A stretch of 64,000 nt of DNA from Sphingomonas alba. GTDB taxonomy: Bacteria; Pseudomonadota; Alphaproteobacteria; Sphingomonadales; Sphingomonadaceae. Numbering within the stretch: the first letter of the stretch is position 1; each line of letters starts with the position of its first letter. Under the pieces are notes generated by a model. That model searched no databases. It saw only the letters and a program-made list of their open reading frames with translations, and was not told the origin of the DNA. Of this stretch, positions 14,513 through 19,509 are shown piece after piece. The stretch covers positions 744,001 through 808,000 of the forward strand of contig NZ_JAMGBD010000001.1 in assembly GCF_023516555.1 (NCBI RefSeq), read 5' to 3'. The translations under genes were made by a program, and so were the position numbers.

Positions 14513-15193
14513 GTGGCCGACAATCCGAGCGATTCATCCGGCCATCGGGCCCGGCTTCGCCAGAGATTGTTCGAGGGCGGCGGCAAGGCCCTGCTCGACC
14601 ATGAGCTGGTCGAATATCTCCTCGCCCTCGCCATTCCCCGCCGCGACACCAAGGTGCAGGCCAAGGCGCTGATTGCCCGCTTCGGCGGCATCGGACCATT
14701 ACTCGAAACGGCGCCGGATGTGCTCCGCAAGGAAGGCCTGTCGGAAGGCGTGATCGGCGCGCTCGCCATCGCCCGCGCCACTGCGTTGCGGCTACTCGAA
14801 ACCCGCGTCGAAGGCCGGCCGATCCTGTCGAGCTGGGACGCGCTCGGCGATTATCTCCAGGCGGCCATGGCTCATAGCAGCATCGAGGAGGTCCGCGTCC
14901 TCTTCCTCAACGCCAAGAACATGTTGATCGCCAATGAGGCGATGTGGCGCGGCTCGGTCGACGAAGCCTCGGTCCATGTTCGCGAGGTCATCAGCCGCGC
15001 CATCGCGCTTGGCGCCACGGCAATCATCATCGTCCACAATCATCCGAGCGGAGACCCCTCACCCAGCAGCCAGGACATCCGCCTGACCCGCGACCTGATC
15101 GAGGCCGGCCGGCACATGAAGGTGACCGTCCACGACCATGTCATCATCGGCGCGCAGGGCCGGTCGAGCATGAAGGCGAAGGGCCTGATCTAG
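14513..15193 (+). CDS. radC: RadC family JAMM/MPN+ protein
   Basis: 226 residues with the RadC N-terminal helix-hairpin region (RHRARLRQRLFEGG, DHELVEYLLALAIPRRDT) and a C-terminal JAMM metalloprotease-like domain. The zinc ligands are in HNHPSGDPSPSSQD and the general-base Glu is in the LFLNAKNML-preceding strand (SIEEVRVLF). A GTG start with TGGGAGG upstream gives the usual length; an upstream ATG at 14429 would add a hydrophobic stretch foreign to RadC. Cellular role is debated (originally DNA repair, now unclear). Divergent from ydbH. Confidence 0.9.
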   Translation: MADNPSDSSGHRARLRQRLFEGGGKALLDHELVEYLLALAIPRRDTKVQAKALIARFGGIGPLLETAPDVLRKEGLSEGVIGALAIARATALRLLETRVEGRPILSSWDALGDYLQAAMAHSSIEEVRVLFLNAKNMLIANEAMWRGSVDEASVHVREVISRAIALGATAIIIVHNHPSGDPSPSSQDIRLTRDLIEAGRHMKVTVHDHVIIGAQGRSSMKAKGLI

Positions 15194-15392
15194 CGCGCCA
15201 TGAGCGACATTGGCGGCACCCCTTGGAGGTCGCTTAAGGTCACAAATGTCACAAAAGTCTTGGGATGAGCGACCATTTTTGCGGGCGCGGCGGCCTACTT
15301 TCGTAATCTCGATCTTATCCACGGTTCAAAGAGCGGTAGCGCGAATGCTGGCATGCTCCGGTCGCTGTAGGACAGGAAAATCGACGATGTGG

Positions 15393-15426
15393 CTAATGGC
15401 AGCTTTCGACCCATTGCGGACACTAG
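15393..15426 (+). repeat. dispersed palindrome, copy 1
   Basis: Contains the shared core GCTTTCGACCCATTGCGGAC, with CTAAT on the left and ACTAG on the right. It is one of seven copies in the window, all in the same orientation (core GCTTTCSACCCAWWGC). The outer arms here are imperfect. Confidence 0.75.
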
Positions 15427-15478
15427 TGAGCGATTCGGCTTCTTAGCTTGCGCTGAAACTACCTTCGGCGCAGCATTG

Positions 15479-15490
15479 CCCCCGCGGGGG
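15479..15490 (+). promoter_or_regulatory. palindrome containing the ribosome-binding site of the TIR gene
   Basis: CCCCCGCGGGGG is a perfect 12-bp palindrome whose right half is the Shine-Dalgarno sequence (GGGGGAG), seven bases before the ATG at 15498. A CCCC/GGGG stem could hide the site and limit translation. Confidence 0.4.
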
Positions 15491-15497
15491 AGTACTC

Positions 15498-17423
15498 ATG
15501 GCTGCCGTGTTCTTGAGCTATGACCGGGACGACACGAGCAAGGCGCGACTGATCGCCGTCGCATTGGAGCGTGCTGGGCACGAGGTCTGGTGGGACCTCC
15601 ACGTTCGCGGGGGAGCCCAATTCTCCCTAGTGATCGAAGAGGCGCTGAAAGCGGCCGAAGCTGTGATTGTGTTGTGGTCGAGGAGTTCGGTGAAATCGGC
15701 TTGGGTCCGGGACGAGGCCGCCGCTGGACGCGACAGCGGCCGTCTTATTCCCGTTTCGCTCGGCGAAATCGAGCCGCCCATGGGCTTCCGGCAATTCCAG
15801 ACGGTCGATTTTTCGCGGTGGAAAGGCAGGTCAAATTCTACAGAGCTTCGCCAACTCCTCAGCGCGATAAACGAACTGAGGCCTGCGTCGCCGGACCGAG
15901 AGAAGAACGCCTCATCCGCAATTCTACAGAAGTCCAAACGCGGCTACTTCCGTATAGCGGCTGGCGGAACTGTTGTTTTGGCTATTGCCGGCTTGTCGGG
16001 CTTATGGTGGTTTAAGCACCACTCTCCGGCCGTTCCCACGGTGGCTGTCGTGGCAGCCGATACCTCGTCAAATAGCCGCGCGCTGGCTCGCGACTTGTAC
16101 GTAAAGCTAGGGCGGCTTCGGGCCGGCGATGCTGACACAATCGAGATCGTCGATGCGACGGTCAAGAAAGGGTTAGACTTCACTTTCCAAGTATCGGGCG
16201 CATCCTCGAACGGCAACCCGACCGCCAACATTACGCTGATTGATCAAAACCATGTGTTGCTCTGGTCGAAAGATTTCGAGCGCGCGCAGAATCAGTACGG
16301 TGACCTGAAGCAGGAGCTAGCATTGACATCCGCACGCGTACTCGGCTGCGCTACAAATGCCGCCAGCAATAGCGGCAGCACGCTCGATCAGCGGACGCTC
16401 AGGCTTTATCTAAACGGCTGCTCGACGCTGTCAGAGGCCGCGTGGACAGACTTCCGCAGCCTAGTCCCTGTCTTTCGCGAAGTTACTCGAAGTGCGCCAA
16501 GATTTGAAGGTGGGTGGGCAAAGCTTGTCGAAACAGAAGCGTATGTAATAAATTGGGAATCGCTCTCCAAAACGGCACCGGAAAGAGATGAACTTGCCCT
16601 AGACGTGGCGCGAGCCCGCAAAGTCAATCCTCGAATGGCCGAAGCTTATTTCGGAGAATCCACTCTCCTTGTGGACAATGATCTTGCGAGTTCGTCGGCG
16701 CTCATTGACCGTGCATTGCGCGATAATCCTGATAGCTCACTGATCCAAGGCATGAACGCGACATTTCTGTCGCAGGTCGGAAGGGTGAAGGAGGCGGTGG
16801 AAGCCACGAAGCGAGCGTACGAACTCGATCCTTTGTCAGCAGACACAGCCTCGGGGTATATCGTGGCGCTCGCTTACGCCGGGCAACTTGATGCGGCCCG
16901 AGAAGAGCTGAAAAAAGCGGAGTCGTTCTGGCCGGAGGCCCACCCACTTGTGGAGGCGAGATTTCGGATAAACCTTCGCTACGGCGACCCGCAGGACGCC
17001 TTGCGCGTTGTCCGGTCGGGCCTGAACCCGGGCTACGCCCATTTCGATTCCTTTCTGCTAGCTCGCATCAACCCAACCCAGGAAAACATTGATCACGCTG
17101 TGGCCGACGCGAAAGCTGCCGTAGGGCAATCAGGTCGCGGCGCCGGTTGGCTATTTCTCGCCCTCGCGCAATTTGGACGTGAAGATGAGATTTATCGCAT
17201 CTTGGAAGATCATCCCGACATGGTCCTCGCCACCAAGGAAATGTTCTTTCGGTCAATCTTTGGCCGATTCCGACACGATCTGAGGTTTATGAAATTGGCG
17301 AAGAAGCAGGGTTTAATCGAATATTGGCGAAGCAGTGGTCATTGGCCCGATTTCTGTCATGACCGCGATCTTCCGTATGACTGCAAAGAAGTGGCAGCCA
17401 GTCTGGCTGGCGACCGAACATAG
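15498..17423 (+). CDS. TIR-domain membrane protein with TolB-like and TPR regions
   Basis: 641 residues. Residues 1-125 are a TIR domain: FLSYDRDD box 1, GHEVWWD, and AVIVLWSRSSVKSAWVRDE, with Glu73 in the position of the catalytic glutamate of NAD-cleaving TIRs (SxxWxxE). A single membrane helix spans about 151-172, followed by a segment starting VPTVAVVAADTSSN that resembles the TolB-like region of CadC/cyclase-type TPR proteins, and a helical TPR-like region from roughly 380 to 600. TIR would be cytoplasmic and the TPR part periplasmic. Gene composition is less GC-rich than neighbours and it is flanked by repeat copies, so it may be acquired. No ThsA or other defence partner is adjacent. 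NADase activity is inference. Confidence 0.82.
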   Translation: MAAVFLSYDRDDTSKARLIAVALERAGHEVWWDLHVRGGAQFSLVIEEALKAAEAVIVLWSRSSVKSAWVRDEAAAGRDSGRLIPVSLGEIEPPMGFRQFQTVDFSRWKGRSNSTELRQLLSAINELRPASPDREKNASSAILQKSKRGYFRIAAGGTVVLAIAGLSGLWWFKHHSPAVPTVAVVAADTSSNSRALARDLYVKLGRLRAGDADTIEIVDATVKKGLDFTFQVSGASSNGNPTANITLIDQNHVLLWSKDFERAQNQYGDLKQELALTSARVLGCATNAASNSGSTLDQRTLRLYLNGCSTLSEAAWTDFRSLVPVFREVTRSAPRFEGGWAKLVETEAYVINWESLSKTAPERDELALDVARARKVNPRMAEAYFGESTLLVDNDLASSSALIDRALRDNPDSSLIQGMNATFLSQVGRVKEAVEATKRAYELDPLSADTASGYIVALAYAGQLDAAREELKKAESFWPEAHPLVEARFRINLRYGDPQDALRVVRSGLNPGYAHFDSFLLARINPTQENIDHAVADAKAAVGQSGRGAGWLFLALAQFGREDEIYRILEDHPDMVLATKEMFFRSIFGRFRHDLRFMKLAKKQGLIEYWRSSGHWPDFCHDRDLPYDCKEVAASLAGDRT

Positions 17424-17739
17424 TGTTGAGGACCTAGAGTCCGCTTTCGACCCATTGCGAGCATCAGCTTCCGCCGAACAGTCCCGCACATTTGGCGCAA
17501 AGGTCGTCGTCGGACGGCTTATCTTTTCTGATAGCGAAGGCCTTCCATGGAAAGGAAAGGCAGTCTGGGTGCCAGTGCCAGAACTCATTCTTCCGTTGGC
17601 TCGGAACGCCACGCCGATACTCAACCATGAGTTGTCCCCAATCAACTCAACACAACGCACCAAATTCAACCCATTTTGGAACGAAAAGGCAAGCATAACA
17701 AATGTTTAGGAGTGCAAGCATCGACCCGCTGCGGCCGTC
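17424..17739. other. intergenic after the TIR gene
   Basis: 316 bp with no convincing gene. Its left part carries repeat copy 2; short open readings across it only reflect the repeat and lack ribosome-binding sites or family similarity that I can recognise. A weak relation to the end of the TIR gene is not visible. Confidence 0.5.
17433..17468 (+). repeat. dispersed palindrome, copy 2
   Basis: GTCCGCTTTCGACCCATTGC followed by GAGCATC, starting ten bases after the TIR stop codon. Left arm GTCCGC; the right arm is altered (GCGAGC), so this copy is a decayed hairpin. Same orientation as the others. Confidence 0.75.
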
Positions 17740-17946
17740 CTAGCGGGGTGGCGCAAACGTTTCGGTATCGGGGCTGTCAGGTTCGGCGTGGGATGAGACC
17801 CCAATTTCCATCAAACATACCAGTGTCTGATACTTCTCCGCCATTTCCTGGTGGACGGCAGCGATGTGCGGAGCGTCCGAGGAGGCGGCTCGTTCGCGCT
17901 CCTCCAAAGCTCGCGTTCGGAAATAGTCGGCATGAGTGGAGGACAT
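17740..17946 (-). CDS. small hypothetical protein, sphingomonad type
   Basis: 68 residues, mostly one amphipathic, charged helix: SSTHADYFRTRALEERERAA, then IAAVHQEMAEKYQTLV. Small proteins with this pattern (a tyrosine-rich start, many Glu/Arg/Ala, a His-x-x-Met-Ala-Glu-x-Tyr motif) recur in sphingomonads as unknowns. GGGGAG lies 8 bases before the ATG. I cannot assign a function; it stands alone in the accessory patch. Confidence 0.65.
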   Translation of the reverse strand: MSSTHADYFRTRALEERERAASSDAPHIAAVHQEMAEKYQTLVCLMEIGVSSHAEPDSPDTETFAPPR

Positions 17947-18053
17947 TTCAGCTCCCCTTTCAATTAGCGGGAGCGCGGTCGGTCTCTCAGGCGGGCGGAT
18001 GCTTGCAGAACACGTCGCCCGATGCCCTGTAATAGCACCGATTGGCGTTTGAA

Positions 18054-18100
18054 CCTAAAGTGGCGGCAATGTCCGCTTTCCACCCAAAGCCGCCACTAGG
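18054..18100 (+). repeat. dispersed palindrome, copy 3 (best-formed)
   Basis: Perfect 9-bp arms AGTGGCGGC (18059-18067) and GCCGCCACT (18089-18097) around the core GTCCGCTTTCCACCCAAA; CCTA/TAGG extends the pairing. Sits 95 bp before purB. Confidence 0.8.
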
Positions 18101-18194
18101 ACCATATGTTAATCGCGGCCCGAATGGGTGGATGGCAGGCATTAGCCCTGCTCCGATTTGAAGCATTGAAGCATCCCTGCTAGCCGCTCGCGCC

Positions 18195-19509
<1,315 letters not shown>

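Follow-up and report, generated by a model that had tools for sequence, protein, structure and literature searches.

In the bacterial TIR systems known to us, infection is sensed within the cell and the response is a defensive one. A gene of Sphingomonas alba raises the question of what a TIR domain does when it is joined, through a membrane helix, to a module predicted to lie on the other side of the membrane. The gene is found at 15498..17423 of the window, the whole stretch of 64,000 nucleotides that was analysed (contig NZ_JAMGBD010000001.1, positions 744,001 to 808,000), and it was originally suggested that it might encode an envelope-triggered NAD-depletion or signalling switch of horizontal origin. 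Its product looks like a modular envelope sensor with a TIR enzyme as output.

The gene and its predicted domains

The open reading frame, which encodes 641 amino acids on the forward strand (as are its parts and the two flanking repeats), is real: it is borne out by Pfam, by AlphaFold2 and by full-length homologues, and a Shine-Dalgarno-like GGGGGAG stands before its ATG. Homologues at E<=1e-10 number 943, and those with organism names are Sphingomicrobium MAGs. An AlphaFold2 model made with a 120-sequence alignment (mean pLDDT 91.3, pTM 0.75) has a TIR fold, a long 22-residue helix, an alpha/beta domain and TPR-type helices in that order, with the linker at residues 133-152 predicted poorly and the BB-loop residues 35-38 at low confidence; the sensor modelled by itself reached a pLDDT of 91.1 and a pTM of 0.90. 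The TIR domain (residues 1-127; 15498..15878), predicted to be cytoplasmic, is matched by Pfam TIR_2 at residues 4-121 (E 2.2e-22, 80.2 bits against a cut-off of 28). The single predicted transmembrane helix (residues 152-173; 15951..16016) overlaps a hydrophobic peak at residues 151-169, and is followed by two domains predicted to be periplasmic. The first, the alpha/beta domain (residues 181-290; 16038..16367), is matched by no Pfam model as a 'TolB-like' part, and that label is a name which we presume to apply from the predicted fold. The second, a TPR-type helical domain (residues 298-613; 16389..17336), is seen both by AlphaFold2 and by Pfam, TPR_14 matching at E 3.1e-5, barely above its cut-off. 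A C-terminal cap with a WPDFC...LPYDC tail (residues 614-641; 17337..17420) is near-invariant in the family and is also present in sister proteins in which the sensor is fused to a winged-helix (wHTH) domain.

Charge bias and cysteine placement fit a TIR domain inside the cell and a sensor outside it with two disulfides. Across 130 TIR proteins, Lys/Arg average 3.4 in the 15-residue stretch preceding the helix and 1.3 in the one following it, an excess before the helix being observed in 116 proteins and an excess after it in three. Conserved cysteines are confined to the predicted outer part: in 120 aligned sequences, 479 of the 481 sensor cysteines fall in four columns (C284, C308, C620 and C629), and the TIR part holds 36 cysteines in 15,813 residues. 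Cys284 and Cys308, whose codons (16347-16349 and 16419-16421) bound the stretch 16347..16421, are invariant (120/120), while Cys620 and Cys629 (17355-17357 and 17382-17384; stretch 17355..17384) are kept in 119/120 and 120/120. The membrane helix with a TPR part across the membrane, as the original prediction had it, agrees with both patterns, and a single helix followed by a periplasmic sensor, the layout of CadC/ToxR-like regulators, is present in the receptor by prediction.

One sensor family on four outputs

One sensor family is carried on four N-terminal outputs, namely TIR, a CadC-type winged helix, a BTAD regulator and a class III cyclase. A search with the sensor only (residues 178-641) gave 373 matches, and the 120 listed comprised 87 TIR proteins, 29 wHTH proteins and four without a label. 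Nine of the 61 genomes examined (own included) hold sensor loci at E<=1e-20, 14 in all with the receptor gene counted: seven with TIR, five with wHTH (PF00486), one with BTAD (PF03704; L106, the sensor gene truncated by the contig end) and one with a cyclase (PF00211). The four cysteines are invariant in 22/22 aligned sensors carrying TIR, wHTH, BTAD or cyclase, an alignment built from 21 of the 24 loci prepared (without L101, L123 and L125), and the receptor has both these cysteines and an alignable sensor after its helix.

The winged-helix form occurs in the receptor's own branch, with sensor identities mostly of 30-43%. Its clearest representative, L072, has PF00486 at residues 48-116, a membrane helix after it and, last, a sensor 38% identical to that of the receptor over its length and ending in the same tail. 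Class III cyclase domains were found in L093 (identical with L114) and L122, whose sensors are 22-23% identical to the receptor's and lie in a more distant branch, which was recovered by the sensor profile of the receptor's family. For L122 the match is weak: the full-length protein gave none to the Pfam cyclase model at 0.001, and an N-terminal piece of 200 residues scored 23.7 bits (E 4.1e-5; cut-off 21.9). In a further survey, 20 of 29 places were classified, as 17 TIR, two cyclase and one unclear (L118), the N-terminal part of L118 appearing to be frame-shifted.

On its well-supported branches, a tree of 71 sensors must switch four times between TIR and wHTH, where shuffles need 13 to 14 switches; the output label is thus clustered yet not single, and a single clade of all 15 wHTH/SARP rows is rejected (p-AU 6e-86). 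An earlier, overlapping selection of 79 rows gave three changes, two of them forced; the exact count is uncertain, L013 and L108 being long branches. For these careful trees far and long-branch rows were excluded and the rows thinned to 79 and 71; before the first tree, the unlabelled P0124, P0125, P0129 and P0151, the duplicate locus L097 and two-thirds of the TIR proteins beyond P0030 had been removed. L112 covers no more than 34% of the alignment columns behind the 71-row tree, and L121 is partial and on a long branch.

The tree of 20 sensors from the distant branch places its two cyclase rows apart, among TIR rows, and rejects one clade for them (p-AU 2e-10). Because the cyclase domains of L122 and L114 are 59% identical while their sensors are placed apart, the histories of cyclase and sensor differ. 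The sensors of L122, from a single-contig genome, and L131, a TIR protein, are 63% identical, and in either protein the similarity sets in where the membrane helix ends. In the TIR/wHTH pair P0102/P0128, which is 45% identical, the breakpoint falls just after the helix; since the helix itself is poorly conserved, the true joint may sit somewhat earlier. It was also observed that L093 and L122 carry closely related cyclase domains on sensors from different TIR subclades.

The architecture and the exchange of outputs can be stated with high confidence. The parts are known; their combination on one exchangeable sensor was not found in the open-access literature searched. That literature, which lacks most subscription papers, also yielded no description of a CadC-type receptor with a TIR.

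Defence, scaffolding and mobility

An anti-phage abortive-infection receptor, with a periplasmic part that would detect adsorbing phage or a damaged envelope and a TIR that would deplete NAD+ and so kill or stall the cell, is an unlikely reading, though one with several points to its credit. The best PADLOC matches of the receptor are TIR effector models (SAVED5--SAVED_TIR, 1.9e-9; Aga_TIR-PNTD1-PNTD2, 1.7e-8), the best-matched TIR folds include SPARTA, the distribution is patchy and accessory (17 of 71 genus genomes match at E<=1e-60, wHTH forms included), and several TIR genes occur per genome, some of them clustered. However, PADLOC matched nothing at E<=1e-5 in nine nearby window genes, neither a ThsA nor a short Argonaute among them, just as no defence partner had been noticed originally. 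As to the suggested search for the same architecture near known defence genes, 131 neighbours of other loci (of 146 listed, called with a simple custom script; those of L081 and L084 excluded) yielded 17 PADLOC models at E<=1e-10, each from one member, the best being MzaA (6.4e-25) and several DpdF models possibly reflecting one protein. The 25 most frequent of 130 neighbour Pfam families are mostly ordinary cellular ones, phage records gave no receptor match, and the three matching plasmid records each covered less than 80% of the receptor (70% of its length at 31% identity, or the TIR alone). The exchange of outputs with transcription factors and cyclases argues in the same direction. A search of the own genome for a STALD receiver gave no match, but its control also matched nowhere, which makes the search uninformative.

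Two named defence systems were compared with the receptor. For SPARTA, the match to the Aga_TIR-PNTD models ends within the TIR, at residue 107 of the receptor and position 119 of the 430 in the model, and the region after the TIR of the Argonaute-associated protein is missing. For Thoeris ThsB, ThsB_TIR scores 18.1 bits, under its cut-off of 21.2. SPARTA TIR-APAZ and CBASS TIR-SAVED proteins, which sense nucleic acids or nucleotides in the cytoplasm, have an N-terminal TIR of similar fold or profile to the receptor's, but their PADLOC models cover only the TIR part of it.

The TIR domain carries a putative NADase motif, W69-xxx-E73 (15702..15716), which lines up with the W-xxx-E of the solved bacterial TIRs 7uxr, 7uwg/8g83 (AbTIR) and 3h16. 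The motif is present in 130/130 TIR rows, and both residues are invariant in 120/120 aligned family members, query included (the best 120 of 943). Glu73, originally proposed as catalytic, is thus retained on a predicted TIR fold in the spacing of NAD-cleaving TIRs, and NADase activity of this domain is probable. The receptor shares the TIR fold and the aligned motif with AbTIR, 7uxr and 3h16, and differs from them in that its TIR, of putative activity, is joined through a membrane helix to a predicted periplasmic sensor. A non-enzymatic TIR, acting as a scaffold for other TIR proteins or a partner and keeping E73 for structure, would accord with the four TIR_2 genes of the own genome and with the survey PMC7075850, where TIR domains are described as serving most often in complex formation and the Glu as conserved in more than 70% of them all; yet the invariance of W69 and E73, spaced as in the NAD(+) hydrolase AbTIR, makes such a role improbable. 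The fourth TIR_2 gene of the genome (G000:C1:1602972-1603160) has a TIR and a long TPR region and is distinct from the receptor family.

The receptor gene lies between radC and purB. The nearest purB genes with a name come from Sphingomonas MAGs and are 86-87% identical. Its GC content, which had been noted as low, is indeed 0.53-0.60 over the gene windows (0.57 for the whole interval) against mostly 0.61-0.70 around. Of the genus relatives, 22 had purB, and the loci of all but G001 and G016 were fetched; among these 20, purB was found in every one and radC nearby in 18, the gap between them being 46-77 bp in six relatives and 277-4120 bp, of varying content, in 12, and tblastn found no TIR gene in the 20 fetched loci. 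Given this variable interval and the absence of the TIR gene from the relatives, the receptor gene is accessory, and its location, on the synteny check that had been suggested, is not conserved. The interval itself (15193-18195) ranges from 46 bp to 4.1 kb in the 18 relatives, with differing cargo, and is a small insertion hotspot. A paralog in the own genome, 42% identical, sits between an EF-Ts gene and an AA_kinase gene, a location that is syntenic in G005. At the family level, matches at E<=1e-40 were found in 23 of the 149 genomes sampled, many places having the TIR part only or the sensor only. Clusters of related TIR-TPR genes were seen at L080:9713-14979, L081:2791-6130 and L084:8596-17417, and G035 (two contigs) has eight matches to the family profile.

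Palindromes flank the gene at 15399..15420 and, just after the stop, at 17440..17461. They are copies of a genus-wide dispersed repeat, ATGTCCGC-TTTCGACCCATT-GCGGACAT, and not part of the receptor. The window copies (15399, 17440, 47486 and 48212) are all intergenic, and the core has four matches there at up to two mismatches against 0.06 expected. The 17-nt core occurs in 19 copies in the own genome at up to one mismatch and in none in the reversed control, and the 22-nt form in 24 of 37 genus genomes (own included) and none of 24 others, sometimes clustered as at G022:C1:2295217-2320336. No Rfam family exceeded its cut-off at the palindrome, the sole Rfam match of the window being a tRNA. 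The palindrome was looked for in 20 further fetched loci holding TIR or sensor genes and turned up in L076 alone (up to three substitutions). As the copies are spread genus-wide and all but absent from these loci, the flanking repeats are no insertion mark, and the original view of them as borders pointing to mobility was abandoned. A recently acquired, repeat-bordered mobile cassette with no stable role, as the low GC, the variable interval and the missing TIR gene in relatives might suggest, is very unlikely in view of repeats independent of TIR genes, an intact frame with its many homologues, and a paralog with a syntenic copy in a second genome.

A probable receptor built like CadC

The receptor is built like CadC, and membership in the CadC/ToxR-like regulators is not claimed for it because a TIR replaces their N-terminal winged-helix domain. 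An N-terminal cytoplasmic output, one membrane helix and a C-terminal periplasmic sensor are shared with E. coli CadC/ToxR-like proteins (predicted for the receptor), whereas CadC has a wHTH where the receptor has its TIR, and the sensor sequences are not alignable. In the sister proteins, the winged helix resembles that of E. coli CadC (HHalign 96.8%, E 2.5e-10) and is matched by the NCBIfam CadC model (1.6e-11, far below the whole-protein cut-off). The top Foldseek PDB matches in both runs were CadC periplasmic domain entries (E 9.9e-6 and 8.1e-6), with low TM-scores of 0.22-0.41 and generic TPR proteins close behind; no CadC entry was among the 50 VIA matches listed for either run, which is no proof of absence. 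At the sequence level no homology of the two sensors was seen, the sensor profile missing the periplasmic domain of CadC (HHalign probability 0.2%, E 0.32). According to PMC3096576, a periplasmic disulfide of CadC supports the inactive state and a periplasmic change acts on the cytoplasmic domain; a match to the receptor's cysteines is not implied.

Cyclase-TPR and actinobacterial TIR-TPR proteins have the same kind of parts, with no shared sensor family implied, and L006, a cyclase and TPR protein of the own genome, shows by eye a TolB-like stretch. TIR plus TPR as such is not new, since PDB 9m0n/9umd, an 824-aa 'Tetratricopeptide repeat protein' (TPR by name), pairs them, the TIR profile matching its residues 1-86. 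No paper was found under these PDB codes, and the function of the protein may be known to others. The pairing is also reported, in the survey PMC7075850, for its group 6. Animal Toll-like receptors likewise have an ectodomain, one membrane helix and a cytoplasmic TIR (PMC7075850), but with the parts in reverse order and an LRR ectodomain, so the likeness is an analogy only.

The computed basis of our reading consists of the open reading frame, the domains, the conservation of the motif and the exchange of outputs within one sensor family. On balance, we favour a CadC-like one-component membrane receptor with a TIR in place of the transcription factor, in which a signal sensed in the periplasm would control the assembly of the TIRs and, probably, their cleavage of NAD+. 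The protein would be a single-pass receptor of the inner membrane, with its N terminus inside as the topology suggests, and its alpha/beta and TPR module, probably held by disulfides, would sense an envelope or extracellular signal. The signal would cause dimerisation or re-orientation across the membrane helix and so bring the cytoplasmic TIRs together, and the assembled TIRs may then use E73 to cleave NAD+, the outcome being either a nucleotide signal or a graded drop in NAD+. Such gating by a periplasmic event would follow from the likeness to CadC and to TIR enzymes, the activity of which arises on assembly.

Because this one sensor family also serves transcription factors and cyclases, regulated signalling is favoured over a dedicated kill switch, and the likeliest role shifts from a defence switch to a signalling receptor, which we consider the probable one. 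The interpretation first proposed is borne out in part.

A TIR domain in the position that a transcription factor or a cyclase takes in sister proteins is a natural experiment, with one sensor family and several outputs. Which genes the wHTH sisters control may show what the common sensor responds to, and this offers a route to the ligand. Tentatively, TIR domains may belong to ordinary envelope signalling, in receptors of Toll-like topology that exchange TIR, cyclase and transcription-factor outputs on a single family of periplasmic sensors, the TIR making an NAD-derived second messenger as the cyclase makes a cyclic nucleotide. The family makes it testable whether bacterial TIRs also act as regulated signalling enzymes for the envelope.
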